Part shown: one piece after another, positions 44,134-56,233 of the stretch | Position numbering within the stretch: the stretch's first letter is position 1 | Layout of the letters: each line of letters starts with the position of its first letter | Origin: Desulfuromonadales bacterium | Lineage (GTDB): Bacteria > Desulfobacterota > Desulfuromonadia > Geobacterales > Pseudopelobacteraceae | DNA: 64,000 nt | Direction of reading: 5' to 3' | NCBI GenBank assembly: GCA_013349325.1 | Contig: DUZX01000009.1 | Coordinates: 40,723 to 104,722 of the forward strand | Program-made: the position numbers and the translations under genes | The notes under the pieces: model-generated | Told to the model about the DNA's origin: nothing | Databases searched by the model: none | The model's input: the letters and a program-made list of their open reading frames with translations, nothing else

Positions 44134-44412
44134 TCATGAAGAATGGCCGATTAACACTTTGTGAATCGTTACAAATATATCTGGCGCATTGTCCCAACGG
44201 GAGAGGAGTGAACCTGATTTGTCCTGCCAGTGATAGGAATATTTCCGTTTACCATCGATGAAGAGGTAATCTTTAATAAAAAGAACCGAACCGTCAATGA
44301 ATCCGACCTTTGCCGAAAATGACATGGCAGAACCATAACGACGGTATTCCGTAACAGTAAAATCGGTCACTATGTCGGAAAACTGGCGGACGCTGTTATA
44401 AAACATTGCCAA
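44134..44412 (-). CDS. TumE-like (DUF6516) putative toxin
   Basis: FSAKVGFIDGSVLFIKDYLFIDGKRKYSYHWQDKSGSLLSRWDNAPD; overlaps upstream partner by 17 nt. Confidence 0.6.
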   Translation of the reverse strand: MAMFYNSVRQFSDIVTDFTVTEYRRYGSAMSFSAKVGFIDGSVLFIKDYLFIDGKRKYSYHWQDKSGSLLSRWDNAPDIFVTIHKVLIGHSS

Positions 44413-44704
44413 GATCTTTCAAGCGGTTTTGCCAGTAATCCTTCCCTTCCTGGGCAAATCGCCACGCCATGAGGTCGTCATATTTCTGGAAATTTTCTTC
44501 AGACTCCTCAAAATCATTAGCGGCCGCTTTGTACTCTTTTCCATATTTACTCTCAAAATTTGCAACTTCATCGGAGAAATCGGATATGCGTGCAAGTATC
44601 TTGGTTGCTAGAACATCCTCAATCAAGCTCTTAACACCTCCAAAATCAAGCTCTTTAGCCATTTGCTCAAGGTTTTCGCTATAGGTGTATGCCAGTGTGG
44701 CCAT
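44396..44704 (-). CDS. putative antitoxin partner of TumE-like protein
   Basis: Small ORF (102 aa) overlapping start of TumE-like gene; MAWRFAQEGKDYWQNRL. Confidence 0.45.
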   Translation of the reverse strand: MATLAYTYSENLEQMAKELDFGGVKSLIEDVLATKILARISDFSDEVANFESKYGKEYKAAANDFEESEENFQKYDDLMAWRFAQEGKDYWQNRLKDLGNVL

Positions 44705-45022: not shown

Positions 45023-45379
45023 CTATTTACCAACCAGCTTCAATAACAAGCCTGCAATAAGGACCGTCTGTAAAAAACCAGCCCCGATGATCCAGCGCAC
45101 CAGTTCAGCTTTTGTTTCAGCAAGATCACGCTTTGAATCGGCACGCAGCAACTCAATCTTGTACTCCAATTCTTTAAAGTCCTGACGAGTAACTGCCCCG
45201 GTTTGTTCTTCGCGCTCGCGCAGAGCTTCAGTAACAACCTCCACTTGTGCAGCCGCCTGCAGATCATCAAAACCGGCATCTCTGAGGCGCTTGTGTAACC
45301 GATATGTATCAATAGCGAGCGTACTCATAACCCCAACCTTTGCATCTCCGGATTTTCTAAAACTTGGAAGCTTGAACAC
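45023..45379 (-). CDS. DUF1640-like coiled-coil protein with C-terminal TM (copy A)
   Basis: DTYRLHKRLRDAGFDDLQAAAQVEVVTEAL...KAELVRWIIGAGFLQTVLIAGLLLKLVGK. Confidence 0.7.
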   Translation of the reverse strand: MFKLPSFRKSGDAKVGVMSTLAIDTYRLHKRLRDAGFDDLQAAAQVEVVTEALREREEQTGAVTRQDFKELEYKIELLRADSKRDLAETKAELVRWIIGAGFLQTVLIAGLLLKLVGK

Positions 45380-45414
45380 GTAAAACCGGAATGTTACTTT
45401 TTACCTACGCGTTG

Positions 45415-45549
45415 TTAAAAAAACTGTTTCACAAAATCAGAAACTGCTATCGCGATCAGTACACCCGTCATCAACTTAATGCCACGTAATTCGGCTTTTA
45501 TCGGAGCAGATTCCTTTTCTAATTTCATATCAAAAGTAAGAGTAGCCAT
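45415..45549 (-). CDS. 44-aa small protein, possible truncated DUF1640-like paralog
   Basis: Hand-translated MATLTFDMKLEKESAPIKAELRGIKLMTGVLIAIAVSDFVKQFF; in-frame QRVGKK* follows the stop. Confidence 0.4.
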   Translation of the reverse strand: MATLTFDMKLEKESAPIKAELRGIKLMTGVLIAIAVSDFVKQFF

Positions 45550-45562
45550 GAAATGACGGTCG

Positions 45563-45832
45563 CTATTTACCAATCAGTTTCAATAACAAGCCTGCAATAA
45601 GGGCTGTCTGCAAAAAGCCGGCACCAATAATCCAGCGAATAAGTTCAGCTTTGTTTTCAGACATGCGGGCTTCAAATTTAAGTTCACGCTCTCTGATATC
45701 GGCTCTGGTGGCAACTTCTGCTTCACCATGCGCTTCCCGGAAAGCCTCTGTGATAGCAACTGACTGAGTATCAGAAAGCCCTGAATCCTTCAGACGGGTG
45801 ACAAACTTCAACGTATCAAATGTAATTGTTGA
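45563..45832 (-). CDS. DUF1640-like coiled-coil protein with C-terminal TM (copy B)
   Basis: ITFDTLKFVTRLKDSGLSDTQSVAITEAFREA...KAELIRWIIGAGFLQTALIAGLLLKLIGK; start MSTITFDT. Confidence 0.7.
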   Translation of the reverse strand, partial: STITFDTLKFVTRLKDSGLSDTQSVAITEAFREAHGEAEVATRADIRERELKFEARMSENKAELIRWIIGAGFLQTALIAGLLLKLIGK

Positions 45833-45905
45833 CATGACGCACCTCACTTCGGGTCAAACCATAACAATCAGCAGCTACAATGTCAAATGGAACGTCGCAA
45901 CCACG

Positions 45906-46286: not shown

Positions 46287-46916
46287 TCAGTAGTACGATA
46301 CCACCTCATAATCCTTGTCTGCCATTTTCTCAAAATCTTTGCTGTCAAAAATAAACTCTCGCAGCGTGACACCATTCACCACATGCTTGATCTGCTTCAA
46401 CTTGACTACCATATCCTTAACTGATTTCCCACTTTTATCGGCTGGTGCTTCGTCTTTATTACTATAACTAATTTTTATGGAATGAATATTTACAGCACTC
46501 TCAGACTTTTTTTCCTGCTCACTTTTTATAATCTCCAGTTGTGCAGACGCTGGCAGTATTTTGGTCATTTTCTTCAGATAAAAATCAATGCTGCCTGACA
46601 TTCTCAGAGCATGCTCCGTCGCAGTCCGCTCTTGAGAGGTTTGTTTGTACTTGGCAGTATTTGTCAGCTTCTCTCTACTCTCTTCAACCCTTTCAGCTGT
46701 CAGATTTGATACTTCGTACATCAGCTTTTTATCGTTATTTTGTACGCAGCCCAAAAAAGCAAGCGCGAGCTCGCCGTCATTCATTTGTCCTGGTGCTTTC
46801 TGTACCTGTGCCGCCTTTGCTGCTACTGCAGCAGGCGGGGTATTTCCCTTCTTGTTGCATCCTGAAACAGCTCCTGCCATTGCAAATACGGACAGCACAA
46901 CTATAACTCGTTTCAT
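46287..46916 (-). CDS. putative lipoprotein of unknown function
   Basis: MKRVIVVLSVFAMAGAVSGCNKKG lipobox. Confidence 0.55.
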   Translation of the reverse strand: MKRVIVVLSVFAMAGAVSGCNKKGNTPPAAVAAKAAQVQKAPGQMNDGELALAFLGCVQNNDKKLMYEVSNLTAERVEESREKLTNTAKYKQTSQERTATEHALRMSGSIDFYLKKMTKILPASAQLEIIKSEQEKKSESAVNIHSIKISYSNKDEAPADKSGKSVKDMVVKLKQIKHVVNGVTLREFIFDSKDFEKMADKDYEVVSYY

Positions 46917-46966
46917 CAAAGCTCCTTTAAAATCATGATCGCAAAACAGCATCATCGATTACGTAA

Positions 46967-47087: not shown

Positions 47088-50000
47088 CTAGAAACGATGT
47101 GAAATGTAGATTGAAGCTGTGCCGGTTACGCCATGACAGGTTACACAAGCTTCGTTAGCCGGTACTGCAGCGCTACGAAGAACTTTAATTTGTCCACCGT
47201 TCTGTTTCATGTGCATTTTTGATGTCGCCAAATCGTGACAGCTGACACATGAAGCAGTAAATGGAGTTGTCACAAGATCCTGTGCATTTGGTAATGAGGT
47301 TCGCGCTGCTGAAACAGCAGTAACGTTGTTAGTGAGAGTAAGAACTGTACCATCTGAAGTAAGATCTGTCGTTACCTGAGCGTTCGACGGAACAGACTTG
47401 TATGCCGCGTATTTAAATGAATTCCCGCTGCCTGTATCTCCTACATGACAAGCTTCGCAGTTTTTGAGAACAGCAGGGAATTTAAATGATGCAGCACTAA
47501 AATACAGAACAACAGAACCTCTGTCGCGTACGAACTTCAGAGGAGTTGTACGACTGCTTCCGGCATGAATGCCGTGAATCATATCTTTGAAGTTGTTTGT
47601 TTCTTCAGGATATGTAGTTGGATCAAGCAGTGTAAAGCCGTCTGCTGTAAGCAACGCCTGTTCTGTAGCTGTCATACTGGCTGGGAATGTAGTAGCAGAA
47701 GCATTTGTGCCTTTACCACTGGAGCTCAAGTTAGGTACGTGGCACAGCGTACAGACCGCTTCGCCAACGGTATCCTTACCGATGTTACGGTTACCACCAT
47801 GGCCTTCAAAGACTTCATGGCAGGCACCGCATTTACCTGCATCAATGACAACACGACGGGCTGTATCACCTGTCACTGTTTTTACTACGGAGATTGTGTG
47901 ACGTCCTGAAGCAGGGCTAACCTGCGTGAAATAGCCCTGTAAAGCAACTGTACGCATTTTAGCACCAGTTGTTAAACCTGAGGCTGCTGCTGAAACAGTG
48001 GCTGTGTAGTAGCCGTTAGCATCAGGTGTCCCAAGGGTTCCAGCAGTGGCAATAGCAGTTAATGCAACAGATTTTGGTTGTGCTGCCTTTAGTCCAGCAT
48101 TGTTGTAGTCAGCTGAACTCGAAAAACTCTGGTTGGTTGCCGTTTTGCTATAAGCAAAAAGGAATGAAGGTCCACCAGTAAAGCCTGTCAAGCCACCAGC
48201 TGCGGTTAATGTAACCGGTGCCATAGCCGCACCTGTACCACCGTCACTCAGGATTCTGAACGTGATGGTTGCCACATTTGAGGCGTCTACGGCGACTGTT
48301 TTAAGGTCATACTTGAAGTTAACTAATCCAGCAGGAGTTTGTGGGTTGTTAGGTGTGGAGTAATCCGTAGCATGATTTGCAACGGTATCCTTCATTTTGC
48401 CTTCGCCATGGCAAGCCGCACAGTTTTTGTCGTCAGTCTGTCCCCCCTGATGAGTTGCAAAATCGACATTATTATGACAGGAACCACAATTTTTCTTACT
48501 TGGTTTAGTTTTCCAGGCAGCAGCTTCAGTTCCCTGATGACAAACGGTACAGTTTCTCATGTCCTGCGGAAACGCAAAAGTTCCGTATGGCACTAAAACC
48601 GCTGGTCTCGGGACAAGTTTGGTTGGGTTGGCAACATTTTCGGCAACAACTGCAACGGGGAGATTTTTACCAGCGTGAATTCTGTGAATGAACGTTACCA
48701 TTTCTGCTTCACCCGAAGTATTCGAGTTTGTATGGCAAATATCACAGAGCAACAGATTCGGGCGTGCAGTGTGCCCCAATATGCTTGCAATATTAGTGTG
48801 ACAACCGTTGCAGGCTTCTGTTGGAACTAAATTACGAGCAAAGAGCTGTTTGCCAGTGCTATCTGACAGCATGGCACCGGTAGCAGGGACAAAGTCATAG
48901 ACAACTGCAAGTCTGTTATTTGCAGCAATATTGGCATTAACTGAGCCGGTTGCTGGGTCAGTAGGGAATGTAGCAGTTACACCGGGGGCTGCAACCGTTG
49001 TAACGGTTACACCAATTCGGGTCGTTGCACTCGCGTCATACGGTGCATTGGTGTTGGAGGTAACATCAGAATAGAATGTTGCCGTATAGCTACCATCACC
49101 TTTATCAATAACAGTATAACCGGGGATTAAAACTGAGCCGATCGGGTTCTTTGTAAAATCAATACCAACAGCATTAGAGGCAACAAGTGTTTTGCCTGGA
49201 TCTGCTACAGGCTTTCCGATAGTACCGGTAACCTGTTTTTTATCAGCTGTCGTAGCGAATGCCAGAGGAGCAGGCAATGTAATTCCTCTGTCGAGATAAT
49301 TTACCCAGTAAGAGCTACTGCCATTTGTTTCTGGTACGAGTTTAGCGATATGTAGGCCAAATGTTTTCAGTCCGCTAATACCTTTTCCGGTGGCTTTGTC
49401 GGTTACCTGGAAATTGACAATCGGATTTTTGCCAGGAATAAAAGCGCTGATGATCTTGGCATCGAATTTCATGTTGTTAAGATCGGCAAAAGAAAGCGTA
49501 CTGGCATCTCTCGCAGGAAGAAGAGATGCACTGGCAACAGAACCTTTAAGCTCAAGTCCGGTTGTGTTGTACGCGAGGACCTGTCCACCATTATCTACAA
49601 CCTGCTGAGCCACGTCAGCGTATGTCTTGCCTGTAGGCAGTGTTACACCGGTATCACCTAACACACCAGTTAAGCCAAGCATTGCTGATACAGTCGTTGC
49701 AATGTTTGTTGATTCCTGGCTGATAGCAATGTTGATAGCGTTGCTGGCTGTGATTCCAGCTGCGGGTGGTACGCTCAAATCAAGAGGTACGATGCTTCTG
49801 AACACCCCTTGTGGAACAATCGCTTTGAAAACAAGAATAGTCTTTGCAGAAGGAAGGGTGAATGTGAGTCCGGAAAATTTGCCATTTGTATCAATGGCAG
49901 TTGTTCCGAGTGCGGTTCCATTCTGAGCATCATAGACTGTAACTGAATTAGCGTCGCCTGCTGCCAATGTAACGGTTTTGCCACTTGCTTTACTGGTGTC

Positions 50001-50135
50001 AACGTTACCACCGACGGTCAGCTGCACACCTTTACCTGTTGTTTGTGCTGTGCTTGTACTGCCACTGCAACCTGCCAGAGGCAACATGGTTAATGCAACC
50101 AGCGCTAACATGTACCATACGTTTCTTACTGACAT
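47088..50135 (-). CDS. OmcA/MtrC-family decaheme c-type cytochrome lipoprotein
   Basis: Lipobox LPLAGC; ten CXXCH: CNGCH, CDICH, CTVCH, CGSCH, CAACH, CGACH, CTLCH, CEACH, CVSCH, CVTCH. Confidence 0.93.
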   Translation of the reverse strand: MSVRNVWYMLALVALTMLPLAGCSGSTSTAQTTGKGVQLTVGGNVDTSKASGKTVTLAAGDANSVTVYDAQNGTALGTTAIDTNGKFSGLTFTLPSAKTILVFKAIVPQGVFRSIVPLDLSVPPAAGITASNAINIAISQESTNIATTVSAMLGLTGVLGDTGVTLPTGKTYADVAQQVVDNGGQVLAYNTTGLELKGSVASASLLPARDASTLSFADLNNMKFDAKIISAFIPGKNPIVNFQVTDKATGKGISGLKTFGLHIAKLVPETNGSSSYWVNYLDRGITLPAPLAFATTADKKQVTGTIGKPVADPGKTLVASNAVGIDFTKNPIGSVLIPGYTVIDKGDGSYTATFYSDVTSNTNAPYDASATTRIGVTVTTVAAPGVTATFPTDPATGSVNANIAANNRLAVVYDFVPATGAMLSDSTGKQLFARNLVPTEACNGCHTNIASILGHTARPNLLLCDICHTNSNTSGEAEMVTFIHRIHAGKNLPVAVVAENVANPTKLVPRPAVLVPYGTFAFPQDMRNCTVCHQGTEAAAWKTKPSKKNCGSCHNNVDFATHQGGQTDDKNCAACHGEGKMKDTVANHATDYSTPNNPQTPAGLVNFKYDLKTVAVDASNVATITFRILSDGGTGAAMAPVTLTAAGGLTGFTGGPSFLFAYSKTATNQSFSSSADYNNAGLKAAQPKSVALTAIATAGTLGTPDANGYYTATVSAAASGLTTGAKMRTVALQGYFTQVSPASGRHTISVVKTVTGDTARRVVIDAGKCGACHEVFEGHGGNRNIGKDTVGEAVCTLCHVPNLSSSGKGTNASATTFPASMTATEQALLTADGFTLLDPTTYPEETNNFKDMIHGIHAGSSRTTPLKFVRDRGSVVLYFSAASFKFPAVLKNCEACHVGDTGSGNSFKYAAYKSVPSNAQVTTDLTSDGTVLTLTNNVTAVSAARTSLPNAQDLVTTPFTASCVSCHDLATSKMHMKQNGGQIKVLRSAAVPANEACVTCHGVTGTASIYISHRF

Positions 50136-50253
50136 AGATTCCTCCTGTAAATTTTGTGCTGCGATTTGTGAAACGGCTGACATCATCCTGTTTTTTTGTT
50201 GCCGGGAAAAAGCATCCCCCCTTTCTAGTGGTTTATTACCAGCAGGTGCTTAC

Positions 50254-51756
50254 TCAGTTCGACGAAGTGTTAATTTGCCCGTCTATGGTGATATCCAGAT
50301 TTGGAGACACGGGCGTAACCGAAATGGCTGTACTGGTATCAGACAGGTTTCCAGCTGCGTCAAAAGCAACAACGGTATAGCTGTAGGCAACACCTGACTT
50401 AACTGATGGATCAGTGTACGAAGGCACTGTTGCTGAACCGATTTTGGTTCCGTTACGATACACATTATAACCCGTCACTCCGACATCATCGCTGGCTGCG
50501 CTCCACGTAAGTTTAACGGAGCTGTTTGTTGCATCAAGTGCGACAGGTGCTGCAACAAGATTGGTTGGTGCAGTTGGTTTGAATATGTCTTTTGCTTCAA
50601 GCGCAAGTACATCAGAAGTCAACTGACCGCCAACGGTGACCGACAGGTTTGGCGACACCGGCGTTGTTACGGTGATTTCTGCGCTGGCAACAGATCTATT
50701 ACCGGCGGCATCAAAGGCGATAACATAGTAATTATAGGTTGTGGATGGAACTAACGGTTTGTCTGTGTAGCTCGTTGTGGCGACTGACGCAATCAACGTA
50801 CCATCACGATAGACACTGTAGCCGGTAACCGGGTTCTTGCCCGTTGTAGTGGCGGGATTCCATGTCAGCGTTACCACGCTGGTTGTGGCTGTATCAGCGC
50901 CTGCAACTGCTTTCAAATCTGTTACGGCATGTGGTGCGGTCGTGTCAGACCAGACCGGTTCTGCTGGAGGATTGGCAGCTGTTGCGAGAATAGCATTAAC
51001 TATGCTGGCAATAGCAGGCTCTCTGAGTGAGACTTTTGTTGCTGCTGCAGTCAGAGCGGTCCGATAGATCTGGTAAGCCGGTTGAGTCACATCAGCAAAG
51101 GCCTGATTGATCATACTCATCGTCTGAATGGTAGTAGCTGCGCCCGAATCAACGATCATCTGGTCTATAAGCTTGAGGGTGGCTGAGTACGAAGGATCAC
51201 TTGCCGGATCTGCCAAAATATCACTTACATTGAACAACATTGCAATTCTTGCATTTGCAGCACTGATAATTCTCTGATCAGCCTTAGAGGTGGGGCTGTC
51301 AGTCAAAAACTTCTGCACCTGCTGGTAAGCCGCTTCAGTCAGTGGGCTGACGATGTATTTTTTGGATGTGTCAAATGCGTCAAGCGCCGCGCTAAAAGAT
51401 TCTACAGCGCCGAAAGGAACGTCACTTCCTGTTGACTCACTGGTGTACGCTGCTCCGGTTTGCCCGGTGACCTTTACAAGCAGTGGAGCGACAGCTTTAG
51501 CTTTTGGAATCTGAATTGAGTAACTGGCATCCGTGGCGGTGGTACCGTTTCCAAGCAGCTCACCAGTCGTACCGTCACTATTCAGCTTAAACACCTGAAC
51601 CAGTGCCCCTTTAATTGGGCCCTTGATTGCTTCGCCGGAGATTGTTGTGGTTTCAACTGCCGCATCTCCACCACCTCCACCGCCGCAAGCGGCAAACAAA
51701 AGAGGTAAACAGGCGAGTAACGCCAATGCCGCAGTCCTCTTGATAAATGTGTGCAT
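50254..51756 (-). CDS. lipoprotein with two fibronectin type III domains
   Basis: Lipobox LLFAACGGGGGG; Fn3 repeats VTLTWNPATTTGKNPVTGYSVYRDGTLI and VKLTWSAASDDVGVTGYNVYRNGTKI. Confidence 0.85.
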   Translation of the reverse strand: MHTFIKRTAALALLACLPLLFAACGGGGGGDAAVETTTISGEAIKGPIKGALVQVFKLNSDGTTGELLGNGTTATDASYSIQIPKAKAVAPLLVKVTGQTGAAYTSESTGSDVPFGAVESFSAALDAFDTSKKYIVSPLTEAAYQQVQKFLTDSPTSKADQRIISAANARIAMLFNVSDILADPASDPSYSATLKLIDQMIVDSGAATTIQTMSMINQAFADVTQPAYQIYRTALTAAATKVSLREPAIASIVNAILATAANPPAEPVWSDTTAPHAVTDLKAVAGADTATTSVVTLTWNPATTTGKNPVTGYSVYRDGTLIASVATTSYTDKPLVPSTTYNYYVIAFDAAGNRSVASAEITVTTPVSPNLSVTVGGQLTSDVLALEAKDIFKPTAPTNLVAAPVALDATNSSVKLTWSAASDDVGVTGYNVYRNGTKIGSATVPSYTDPSVKSGVAYSYTVVAFDAAGNLSDTSTAISVTPVSPNLDITIDGQINTSSN

Positions 51757-51781
51757 TGAACTCTCCTTCCGATTAATTTGA

Positions 51782-52384
51782 CTATGGAGCTGTTTCCAGC
51801 AGGGCAGCAGTATGGCAGCGATAGCATGTTGGACCACTCAGAAACACCCCTTTCAGGTCATCACCATGACAAGCGGCGTTTCTGCATGAACTCTTATTGT
51901 TGCTGAGTGCATTGAGGTACGCTTTGTGCGGCTGACCGTTAGTCCAGCTCGTGGGGTGGAAATTAACCGCTCCGCCGATATGGCACGTTGTTGCACAATT
52001 GGGTGCTGTACCAGCACCCTCCAGCGCTGTGCCGTGGCACGCCGCATTGGCACAGGTAGTTGATTTTGTGGGGTTGGCAGCAACTTCTGCCTTATACGTG
52101 GCTGCATGCCGTGCATATGCATAACCGTTCCAGCTTACGGGATGCTTTGAAGTGGGGCCTGCTGCGTGACACGTAAAGCAGGAACTTTTGGCAATGCCGT
52201 CGTCAAGCTTCTCGCCGTGGCACTCAATGCATGCCTCAAGGTTGGTTTTGGCGGATGATTTGTGAGTTGCGGCCCAGTCTGACGGGTGTTCTCCAATTGC
52301 TTTCGGATTTGTGTCTCCACAACCGCTCAGCGCGAGAGAGGCTGCAAGTGCAAGAACTGCTAGAGATGGTTTTATTTGTGGCAT
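51782..52384 (-). CDS. multiheme cytochrome lipoprotein with CX4CH/CX3CH motifs (Geobacter CxxxxCH/CxxCH type)
   Basis: Lipobox LALSGC; CIECH, CFTCH, CANAACH, CATTCH, CRNAACH, CYRCH. Confidence 0.85.
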   Translation of the reverse strand: MPQIKPSLAVLALAASLALSGCGDTNPKAIGEHPSDWAATHKSSAKTNLEACIECHGEKLDDGIAKSSCFTCHAAGPTSKHPVSWNGYAYARHAATYKAEVAANPTKSTTCANAACHGTALEGAGTAPNCATTCHIGGAVNFHPTSWTNGQPHKAYLNALSNNKSSCRNAACHGDDLKGVFLSGPTCYRCHTAALLETAP

Positions 52385-52806
52385 GATGCGCACCTCTCAT
52401 TATTCTGACGTCCGTGACATTTTACGCAGGAAGCCGGATTTATCTTGCCGTCAATTTTGTGCTGACTCATGTAATCGCCACGGTGCGGCAGATTGCGATC
52501 AGGCGAATCGGCAAACTTGTCAGCCGGTTTAATCTCTTCTTTGTGGGCATGGCAGTCGGAGCAGAATGATTCCTGATGACAGGAGGCACAGGTTTGACGG
52601 GAACTACCGGCATAAAAACCATGCTTTTTGAAGAAATCGGCGGACTTGTGGTTGAATAAACCCAGTGAGTCACTGTGACATTCAGAACAGTTCGGTGTAT
52701 TCGTCAATGTTTCTGGATGTATACGCGCCACACTGGTTGTATTGGCACAGGCGTACAGGACAGAGAGTACTAACGGGATAAGAACTATCAATAGCTTGTT
52801 TTTCAC
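52372..52806 (-). CDS. pentaheme c-type cytochrome lipoprotein
   Basis: Lipobox VLYAC; CSECH, CASCH, CSDCH, CVKCH, CASCH. Confidence 0.88.
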   Translation of the reverse strand: MKNKLLIVLIPLVLSVLYACANTTSVARIHPETLTNTPNCSECHSDSLGLFNHKSADFFKKHGFYAGSSRQTCASCHQESFCSDCHAHKEEIKPADKFADSPDRNLPHRGDYMSQHKIDGKINPASCVKCHGRQNNERCASCHK

Positions 52807-54134
52807 TCTTTACCCCCCTTATTCGCTTTTTTCGTGTCAAAGGCGTAGGTCAACTTCAGCAAACCTCGCACTTCATTGTCAAAATCAGGACTTTTGGAAT
52901 ATTCAAGATCCGCCCCGACTTTTAATTTTCGGCTAAACTCATACCCGGCTGAAGCGGTTGCGGCATAGCTGTTTTTAACATCATTAATTTTCTTGTCATA
53001 CCCGACATTCATAAAATCGACCGAGATGTCTGCATGCCCGATTTTTTTGGCAGCATACAAGCGGTACTCGTAGTAACGCAGACGATCACTGTTGCCCTCC
53101 ATTCTGTGACCGGAAAAACCGGCCGAATATGATCCGGGAATGGAGTACGAAATCTTGCCGCCGAAGTAGTTGGCATCTCCGGCTAACTGATACGAGTAAT
53201 TCTTGTAATCAGCCGTGATGGTAAGATTTTTGATCGGCGTGGCGGAGACAAAAACACCTGCAGTGAGAAGCTCTTCGTTACTGTTCGGATTTGGAAGCCC
53301 GAAAACAGTTGCCAGTTTCAAGGCATTGGTCGTGACGTTGTAGAAATAATCGTTGTAGTTGATGTTTGAAAAATCCGCTCCGAACTTGATATCTTCAAGA
53401 GGTGTGATACCCAGCGAATAGGCATGCTCCATCCACCCTTCCGTAATTGAGTTGTAGGAAGAACGGCCTGTCAACTCGACCTGTTTAACGGGATGCAACC
53501 AGAGGTCAATGCCCTCTTCTTCCCGGTAGCGCTGTTTATCTGAATCTTCACTCTTTAATGCGCTGATTCCGACACTGTAATATTTCGGCATACTCTGGGA
53601 AATACGGGTGCCATAGACAAAATTTCCGCCTTTGGCATCTGTTTCCGTCATGACAGCTTTTCCGAAAAAGGCCGATGCGCCAAAACCTGCGGCAAAATCG
53701 CTACGCAGATAGAGACCATCAACTTTTTCGGCAGCGACTCCTTCGGAAATAAACTGGCGACCAAAATTTACGGCCAGATTATTTTTAGCGCTGCGATAGC
53801 TCAGATAGGCATACTGCAGATCGGCGTCGGAGTATTTATCCGTTGATTTATCAGCCAGATCCAAGCGACCCCAGGTACCCAGATAAAAGGCAACCCCGGA
53901 ACCATCGTCGCGGTTGTCATTCAGGTTTAAGCGGAGATACTCGTACAGCGGGTAAATATCCTTTTTCTCAAGATTGGTTTTCATACGGAGAATGGTGCTT
54001 GATTCACCGGAAAAAGACACATCCGATGCCATCGACGGAGCGGAAAAGATGAGTGCAGCGGTAAGACATCCTCCACACAGAGTGAGGATTTTTTGTGGGG
54101 TGCAGCCTGATCTGGTGTGCTGGTGTTTTTTCAA
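52803..54134 (-). CDS. outer-membrane beta-barrel protein (candidate porin of cytochrome conduit)
   Basis: Signal peptide ending PSMASD; amphipathic beta-strand pattern throughout; 4-nt overlap with pentaheme gene. Confidence 0.75.
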   Translation of the reverse strand: MKKHQHTRSGCTPQKILTLCGGCLTAALIFSAPSMASDVSFSGESSTILRMKTNLEKKDIYPLYEYLRLNLNDNRDDGSGVAFYLGTWGRLDLADKSTDKYSDADLQYAYLSYRSAKNNLAVNFGRQFISEGVAAEKVDGLYLRSDFAAGFGASAFFGKAVMTETDAKGGNFVYGTRISQSMPKYYSVGISALKSEDSDKQRYREEEGIDLWLHPVKQVELTGRSSYNSITEGWMEHAYSLGITPLEDIKFGADFSNINYNDYFYNVTTNALKLATVFGLPNPNSNEELLTAGVFVSATPIKNLTITADYKNYSYQLAGDANYFGGKISYSIPGSYSAGFSGHRMEGNSDRLRYYEYRLYAAKKIGHADISVDFMNVGYDKKINDVKNSYAATASAGYEFSRKLKVGADLEYSKSPDFDNEVRGLLKLTYAFDTKKANKGGKE

Positions 54135-55843: not shown

Positions 55844-56233
55844 TTATTTTTCTTCAACGGCCTTGGTAGCAGTCTCCCGCTTTGCATCCCACCCTTCCCA
55901 TACATATTTCGGATCAATCATCGGATCATAATAGCCAGGCTGCGGCACCATGAAGAAGACCGCCTCGGTGACGCCGATAAAACCCCGGTAGAGTGTCATG
56001 CCGATCCCCTTCAGCGGGCCGATCAGATAACCGGTTGTTCCCATGTCACGGACCGTCAAGACCGTCTGCTTGGGAAGTTCTGCAATGCTGGTAAACGTAT
56101 TGGCGACGCCCCGGCTGAATTTGAGCGCCATTTTTTCAACAATCATCTCCGGCTGTTGTTCGGCAGAGGCCAAGAGCGGTGCCGTCAGAGCTAAAACTGT
56201 CAGTAGCGTTAAAAACAACAGAAGCTTTTTCAT
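55844..56233 (-). CDS. exosortase system-associated TIGR04073-like protein
   Basis: Signal peptide; KFSRGVANTFTSIAELPKQ...GTTGYLIGPLKGIGMTLYRGFIGVTEAVFFMVP. Confidence 0.75.
   Translation of the reverse strand: MKKLLLFLTLLTVLALTAPLLASAEQQPEMIVEKMALKFSRGVANTFTSIAELPKQTVLTVRDMGTTGYLIGPLKGIGMTLYRGFIGVTEAVFFMVPQPGYYDPMIDPKYVWEGWDAKRETATKAVEEK

Follow-up and report, generated by a model that had tools for sequence, protein, structure and literature searches.

The window analysed here is a 64,000-nucleotide stretch of DNA from a Desulfuromonadales bacterium of the order Geobacterales (GenBank assembly GCA_013349325.1, contig DUZX01000009.1, positions 40,723 to 104,722). Five consecutive genes on its minus strand, running from 54134 to 47088, encode in this order a porin, a pentaheme cytochrome, a cytochrome with six heme motifs, a lipoprotein with fibronectin type III (Fn3) domains and a decaheme cytochrome of the OmcA/MtrC family. 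Judged from their sequences, these genes probably (we put it at about 0.78) specify an electron conduit across the outer membrane that belongs to a divergent OmbB-OmaB-OmcB branch of the Pcc superfamily and carries an OmcA/MtrC-family tip. An initial annotation of this DNA had proposed a porin-cytochrome conduit, and this part of the proposal is supported by homology to OmbB and OmaB, by a near-invariant gene order in relatives and by a model of the barrel.

Gene calls, motif counts and lipoboxes bear out the composition given in that annotation, i.e., five consecutive genes, 21 heme motifs (5 + 6 + 10 in the pentaheme, the six-motif protein and the decaheme) and four lipoproteins. The lipoboxes LYAC, LSGC, FAAC and LAGC support the reading of four of the five products as lipoproteins. 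At the DNA level, the CX2CH pattern has 26 matches in the window compared to 5.2 +/- 2.6 in shuffles, an approximately fivefold excess that is reached in 0 of 100 shuffles, and 18 of the 26 are in-frame motifs of the three cytochrome genes. We re-read the gene starts as TTG 54134 (porin), GTG 52806 (pentaheme), ATG 52384 (six-motif), ATG 51756 (Fn3) and ATG 50135 (MtrC-type), the last three being likely from the sequence. The porin start is preceded by GGAGG and the pentaheme start overlaps the porin stop. The six-motif start falls within the final heme codons of the gene for the pentaheme, which makes translational coupling probable, and the tight or overlapping spacing of the genes favours co-expression. 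Judged by eye, the mtrC-type gene is followed by two hairpins, of which the second has a T run, and the transcription unit thus probably ends there.

The link to OmaB came from a search with the pentaheme alignment in genomes with few close relatives. This matched a protein of ~231 aa with 8 hemes. Its gene is flanked by those of a 403-aa porin and of a lipoprotein with 9 to 12 hemes, and is often found in tandem duplicates. We read this locus as ombB-omaB-omcB because it has the same architecture, with 8-heme and 12-heme cytochromes (PMC4589669). The window pentaheme matches the 8-heme OmaB-type protein by BLASTP (E 4e-14) and OmaB by hhalign (99.5%, E 3.8e-22). The porin is likewise related to OmbB-type porins, both by hhalign (98.9%, E 1.8e-17 over 375 columns) and by BLASTP (E 2e-9). 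In the reverse search, the OmaB profile found only three matches in the host genome, all of them pentahemes adjoining a porin, with the one in the window as the best; the host shows no canonical 8-heme OmaB. On the strength of these alignments, the porin and the pentaheme are homologues of OmbB and OmaB on a divergent branch. A tree places the window porin and the tandem porins of Geomonas in one clade (support 98) with the OmbB-type porins outside (100).

Of 76 genomes in the host family, 53 have the porin (E <= 0.001), in two groups with ~49–69% and ~30–36% identity. It has no Pfam or NCBIfam match, and sequence searches of the PDB with the porin and with the pentaheme returned no significant relative. 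The pentaheme has five CX2CH motifs, within the range of 5–14 hemes of Pcc inner cytochromes (PMC4245776), and Cys20 of its lipobox LYAC is invariant in 13 relatives. Its family also turns up here and there in the phylum beyond the order (at E <= 1e-25, 34 of 395 sampled genomes, of which a few do belong to the order), and a scan of genomes for OmaB returned other Geobacterales and Nitrospirota.

The initial annotation had named a barrel too small or closed to host a cytochrome as an objection to its proposal. The AlphaFold2 model of the 443-aa porin has 22 strands and no plug domain (pLDDT 88.1, pTM 0.79), which agrees with the 18–22 strands of Pcc porins (PMC4245776). Ideal barrel geometry gives a C-alpha radius of ~20 Å at 22 strands versus ~23.5 Å at 26, and the model supports a barrel that would be wide enough in principle for a cytochrome. 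The best matches in a structural search were barrels of unrelated function, and TM-scores were highest (0.56–0.59) for large barrels, pilus ushers and a TonB receptor; the fold search therefore backs the size of the porin and not its function.

The decaheme is assigned to the surface part of the proposed conduit. It has 10 CX2CH motifs, matches TIGR03507 (E 1.3e-97; 328 bits against a curated cut-off of 209), carries the MtrC/MtrF II–IV domain (PF22113, E 5e-41), has MtrF (3pmq) and MtrC (9eov) as relatives in the PDB, and is the sole OmcA/MtrC gene in the host genome. The adjoining lipoprotein has the lipobox FAAC and two fn3 domains (PF00041, E 1e-12). In two families of the order, its orthologues (47–49% identity in the N-terminal region) likewise adjoin this MtrC-type gene. 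The inclusion of these two proteins, as initially annotated, is both real and conserved in relatives. The six-motif protein combines three CX2CH, one CX3CH and two CX4CH motifs (CIECH, CFTCH, CANAACH, CATTCH, CRNAACH and CYRCH), and its lipid Cys22 is conserved in the family alignment.

We infer complex formation, the location of the subunits, the direction of electron flow, the acceptor and the role of the Fn3 protein. Periplasmic cytochromes would reduce the OmaB-like pentaheme, which may sit, anchored by its lipid, within the 22-strand barrel, in its lumen. The chain of hemes would be continued by the six-motif lipoprotein as far as the outer face, where the OmcA/MtrC decaheme, anchored on the outside, could act as electron donor to Fe(III) minerals, electrodes or other acceptors. 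At the surface, the Fn3 lipoprotein may serve as a non-redox scaffold or adhesin. A similar role has been suggested for the fn3 domain in the cytochrome OetF (Murali et al., 2023; PMC10553843).

Comparison with relatives shows a constant core with a variable surface part. The synteny across Geobacterales that the initial annotation had suggested examining is conserved. A porin gene lies directly upstream of 69 of the 70 pentaheme genes at the fetched loci and a cytochrome gene directly downstream of 68 of the 70, a regularity that is not due to chance. Around this core are found Fn3 and OmcA/MtrC genes downstream, OmcA/MtrC upstream, another Fn3-domain protein with a 9- or 10-heme lipoprotein, or none of these. 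The full five-gene order recurs in the host genus (G010) and in the Geomonas-type genomes G105, G110 and G121, and G105 and G121 each have two tandem copies of it. Two Geomonas-type loci (L103:5291-19001 and L121:5223-19000) also have a window-type conduit ~5–8 kb from an omcB-omaB-like pair on the opposite strand.

OmcA/MtrC genes over the cut-off are present in 32 of 141 genomes of the order. Counting from the listed matches, 36 of 50 strong OmcA/MtrC loci (22 genomes) lie within ~5 kb of a Pcc pentaheme, a count that is inflated by closely related species and in which contig ends hide some neighbours. There are two main layouts, with the MtrC-type gene either directly upstream of the porin (~1.5 kb) or after the six-motif and Fn3 genes (~2.7–3.0 kb). 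These cluster on the MtrC tree and neither is a single clade, which implies more than one change in the position of the tip. A strong MtrB homologue is found in only 3 of the 32 genomes with OmcA/MtrC. Thus, pairing of Pcc genes with OmcA/MtrC is common in Geobacterales and, judging from gene neighbourhoods, the OmcA/MtrC family appears to be a terminal subunit of Pcc conduits within the order. A recent survey of Desulfobacterota left open whether MtrC proteins associate with MtrAB (Shaw et al., 2025; PMC12133095), and the linkage offers a testable answer for Geobacterales, with the MtrC family wired to Pcc porins.

Several points weigh against a five-component conduit. The identity of the porin to OmbB is low (20–25%), and the location of the six-motif lipoprotein is uncertain. 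The AlphaFold2 model of the pentaheme was poor (pLDDT 61) and was discarded. Shared spacing of heme motifs alone can inflate the similarity among multiheme proteins; here, the specificity of the OmaB profile and the agreement of both partners, porin and pentaheme, favour homology over motif spacing.

The most serious competitor, which we regard as possible but doubtful, divides the operon into two units. The porin, the pentaheme and the six-motif protein would be a complete conduit, and the MtrC-type and Fn3 proteins a separate oxidoreductase/adhesin pair that takes electrons from the conduit or from nanowires and is not a stable subunit. Related loci retain the core trio either alongside different surface proteins or without any, which fits such a division, as does the occurrence of MtrC-type genes on either side of the core in layouts that are not cleanly split on the MtrC tree. 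The strong linkage in two fixed layouts and the gene spacing that favours co-expression speak for a single system. An unlikely reading is that the barrel is a selective porin for oxyanions or nutrients to which a multiheme reductase is attached, as has been put forward for ExtI with selenite and tellurite, and not a mineral or electrode conduit. Loss of ExtI impairs selenite/tellurite reduction (PMC5877670), and the barrel model does resemble general and substrate-specific porins, among many other barrels. An ExtI-type porin was rejected in view of the OmbB/OmaB homology and of a surface decaheme from the OmcA/MtrC mineral-reductase family. In addition, no NCBIfam Ext match was obtained for the tested genes, and no rhodanese-like lipoprotein, ExtK-type cytochrome or ext operon neighbour was recognised among the open reading frames of the window. 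It is more improbable still that the locus is an MtrCAB system whose porin and small cytochromes would be degenerate forms of MtrB and MtrA, as the family of the terminal cytochrome might suggest. In a search limited to the cluster itself, the small cytochromes are only those with 5 and 6 motifs, and a decaheme MtrA is absent. The pentaheme matches OmaB, the 443-aa porin has 22 strands against the 26 of MtrB, and neither this porin nor any other protein of the host genome matches MtrB_PioB (PF11854); MtrCAB membership was rejected for want of an MtrB. We therefore retain a single Pcc conduit with an OmcA/MtrC tip as the preferred reading of the five genes, which are listed in Table 1 together with a neighbouring gene.

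Table 1. Genes of the proposed conduit and the adjacent lipoprotein gene (positions in the window).
Feature	Position	Strand	Basis
Outer-membrane porin, OmbB-related Pcc family	52803..54134	-	22-strand barrel model; hhalign and BLASTP to OmbB-type porins
Pentaheme outer-membrane lipoprotein, OmaB-related, probable barrel-lumen subunit	52372..52806	-	5 CX2CH; lipobox LYAC; hhalign to OmaB
Six-motif cytochrome lipoprotein, probable outer-face relay	51782..52384	-	CX2CH/CX3CH/CX4CH motifs; family alignment
Fibronectin type III lipoprotein (two domains), probably a scaffold or adhesin at the surface	50254..51756	-	PF00041; lipobox FAAC
Decaheme surface lipoprotein of the OmcA/MtrC family, probably the terminal reductase	47088..50135	-	TIGR03507; PF22113; 10 CX2CH
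Small non-heme lipoprotein (MKRVIVVLSVFAMAGAVSGC), probably separate transcript	46287..46919	-	Conserved 3' of MtrC-type gene at three related loci

At L050, L107 and L108, the MtrC-type gene is closely followed by a gene 37–39% identical to that of the small non-heme lipoprotein, and the L107 copy has no Pfam match. It is possible that this protein is a sixth component, though two hairpins part its gene from the mtrC-type gene here. Further along the minus strand are two adjoining genes for related CCDC90-like coiled-coil proteins (45023-45847; PF07798) with near-identical C-terminal membrane segments, likely a tandem duplication, and two overlapping small genes (44134-44704), the second of the TumE toxin family (PF20126, E 4e-11), that make up a probable TumE-type toxin-antitoxin pair. 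On the other side of the cluster, 55844-56233 on the minus strand encodes a conserved exported protein of 129 aa (60–77% identity, no Pfam match), which is found near porin-cytochrome clusters in many relatives (e.g., L035, L036, L038, L040, L050, L161 and L179).

Among known conduits, MtrCAB/OmcA of Shewanella has in common with the window a surface decaheme of the OmcA/MtrC family and the same working principle, but its porin and inner cytochrome are MtrB and MtrA, unlike those of the window. The OmbB-OmaB-OmcB system of G. sulfurreducens, described in a passage of PMC4589669 citing Liu 2014 as conducting electrons across proteoliposome membranes, is closer. It has a homologous porin and lumen-type cytochrome in the same gene order. 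With 8 hemes and without a lipobox, OmaB differs from the window pentaheme, which has 5 hemes and a lipid anchor, and the 12-heme OmcB is replaced by the six-motif lipoprotein and the OmcA/MtrC decaheme. These two represent the outer-membrane multiheme cytochrome of a Pcc cluster, the decaheme being of the OmcA/MtrC family and not OmcB.

The closest published counterpart is in Geobacter sp. M18, where Shi et al. (2014; PMC4245776) described a porin, a 5-heme periplasmic cytochrome and an outer-membrane cytochrome whose motifs comprise one CX2CH and five CX3-4CH. GM18_3461-3463 and GM18_3467-3469 thus resemble the window in having a porin, a 5-heme and a ~6-heme cytochrome with CX3-4CH motifs, and the 10-heme GM18_3465 lies two genes on from the core, as does the decaheme in the window. 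The same authors argued that 5 + 6 hemes are enough to cross the membrane. The idea of two small cytochromes acting jointly, which the initial annotation suggested as a replacement for one large periplasmic multiheme subunit, is accordingly not new. In that paper (PMC4245776), GM18_3465 was read as a porin-like cytochrome with 10 hemes and 21 strands. The homologous tandem locus L107 reads porin, pentaheme, six-motif, Fn3, MtrC-type, small lipoprotein and then repeats, which fits the M18 locus numbers. Its Fn3 lipoprotein is encoded between the six-motif and MtrC-type genes, a small lipoprotein related to that of the window separates the two units, and an OmcA/MtrC decaheme (TIGR03507, 388 bits, E 6e-116) occupies the position equivalent to GM18_3465. 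By gene order in this relative and by heme count, GM18_3465 would be a surface cytochrome of the OmcA/MtrC family that adjoins an Fn3 lipoprotein, and we infer from its position and hemes that its beta-rich domains were misread as barrel strands. The linkage thus suggests a correction to the published reading. More broadly, we lean towards the view that OmcA/MtrC proteins of Geobacterales are mostly non-Mtr and serve, in a hybrid system, as tips of OmbB/OmaB-type (Pcc) conduits with a dedicated Fn3 lipoprotein, GM18_3465 being one such tip. No description of clusters of Fn3, OmcA/MtrC and porin genes was found in the literature searched, which is weak evidence as subscription journals were outside the search.

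A related organization is seen in the Ext clusters. In ExtABCD and ExtEFG, a porin (18 and 21 predicted strands, respectively) is followed by a pentaheme outer-membrane lipoprotein (PMC6148476). Compared by architecture only, their further cytochromes are of the 12-heme kind, unlike those of the window. A hunt for extEFG through NiFe-hydrogenase neighbourhoods turned up no porin-cytochrome cluster. The host has two further porin-pentaheme loci of a second subclass, L055 (G000:C8:79686) and L056 (G000:C30:7853), in which the pentahemes are followed by 17-motif (15 CX2CH + 2 atypical) and 10-motif cytochromes; L056 starts inside a cytochrome with at least 23 motifs. With this ExtEFG-like architecture of porin, pentaheme and 10- to 17-motif cytochrome, these loci look nearer to ExtEFG. 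Because the M18 unit and the Ext pairing are published, and the porin and pentaheme are OmbB and OmaB homologues, we class the cluster by its sequences as a member of the known Pcc kind, with a core type already described. The initial annotation had itself held that a match to a known type would speak against a new conduit, and its claim of a new type is not supported. Swapping of surface lipoproteins on a conserved core has been noted for the Ext clusters (PMC6148476), and the window and its relatives similarly combine a constant core of porin, pentaheme and third cytochrome with exchangeable surface modules.

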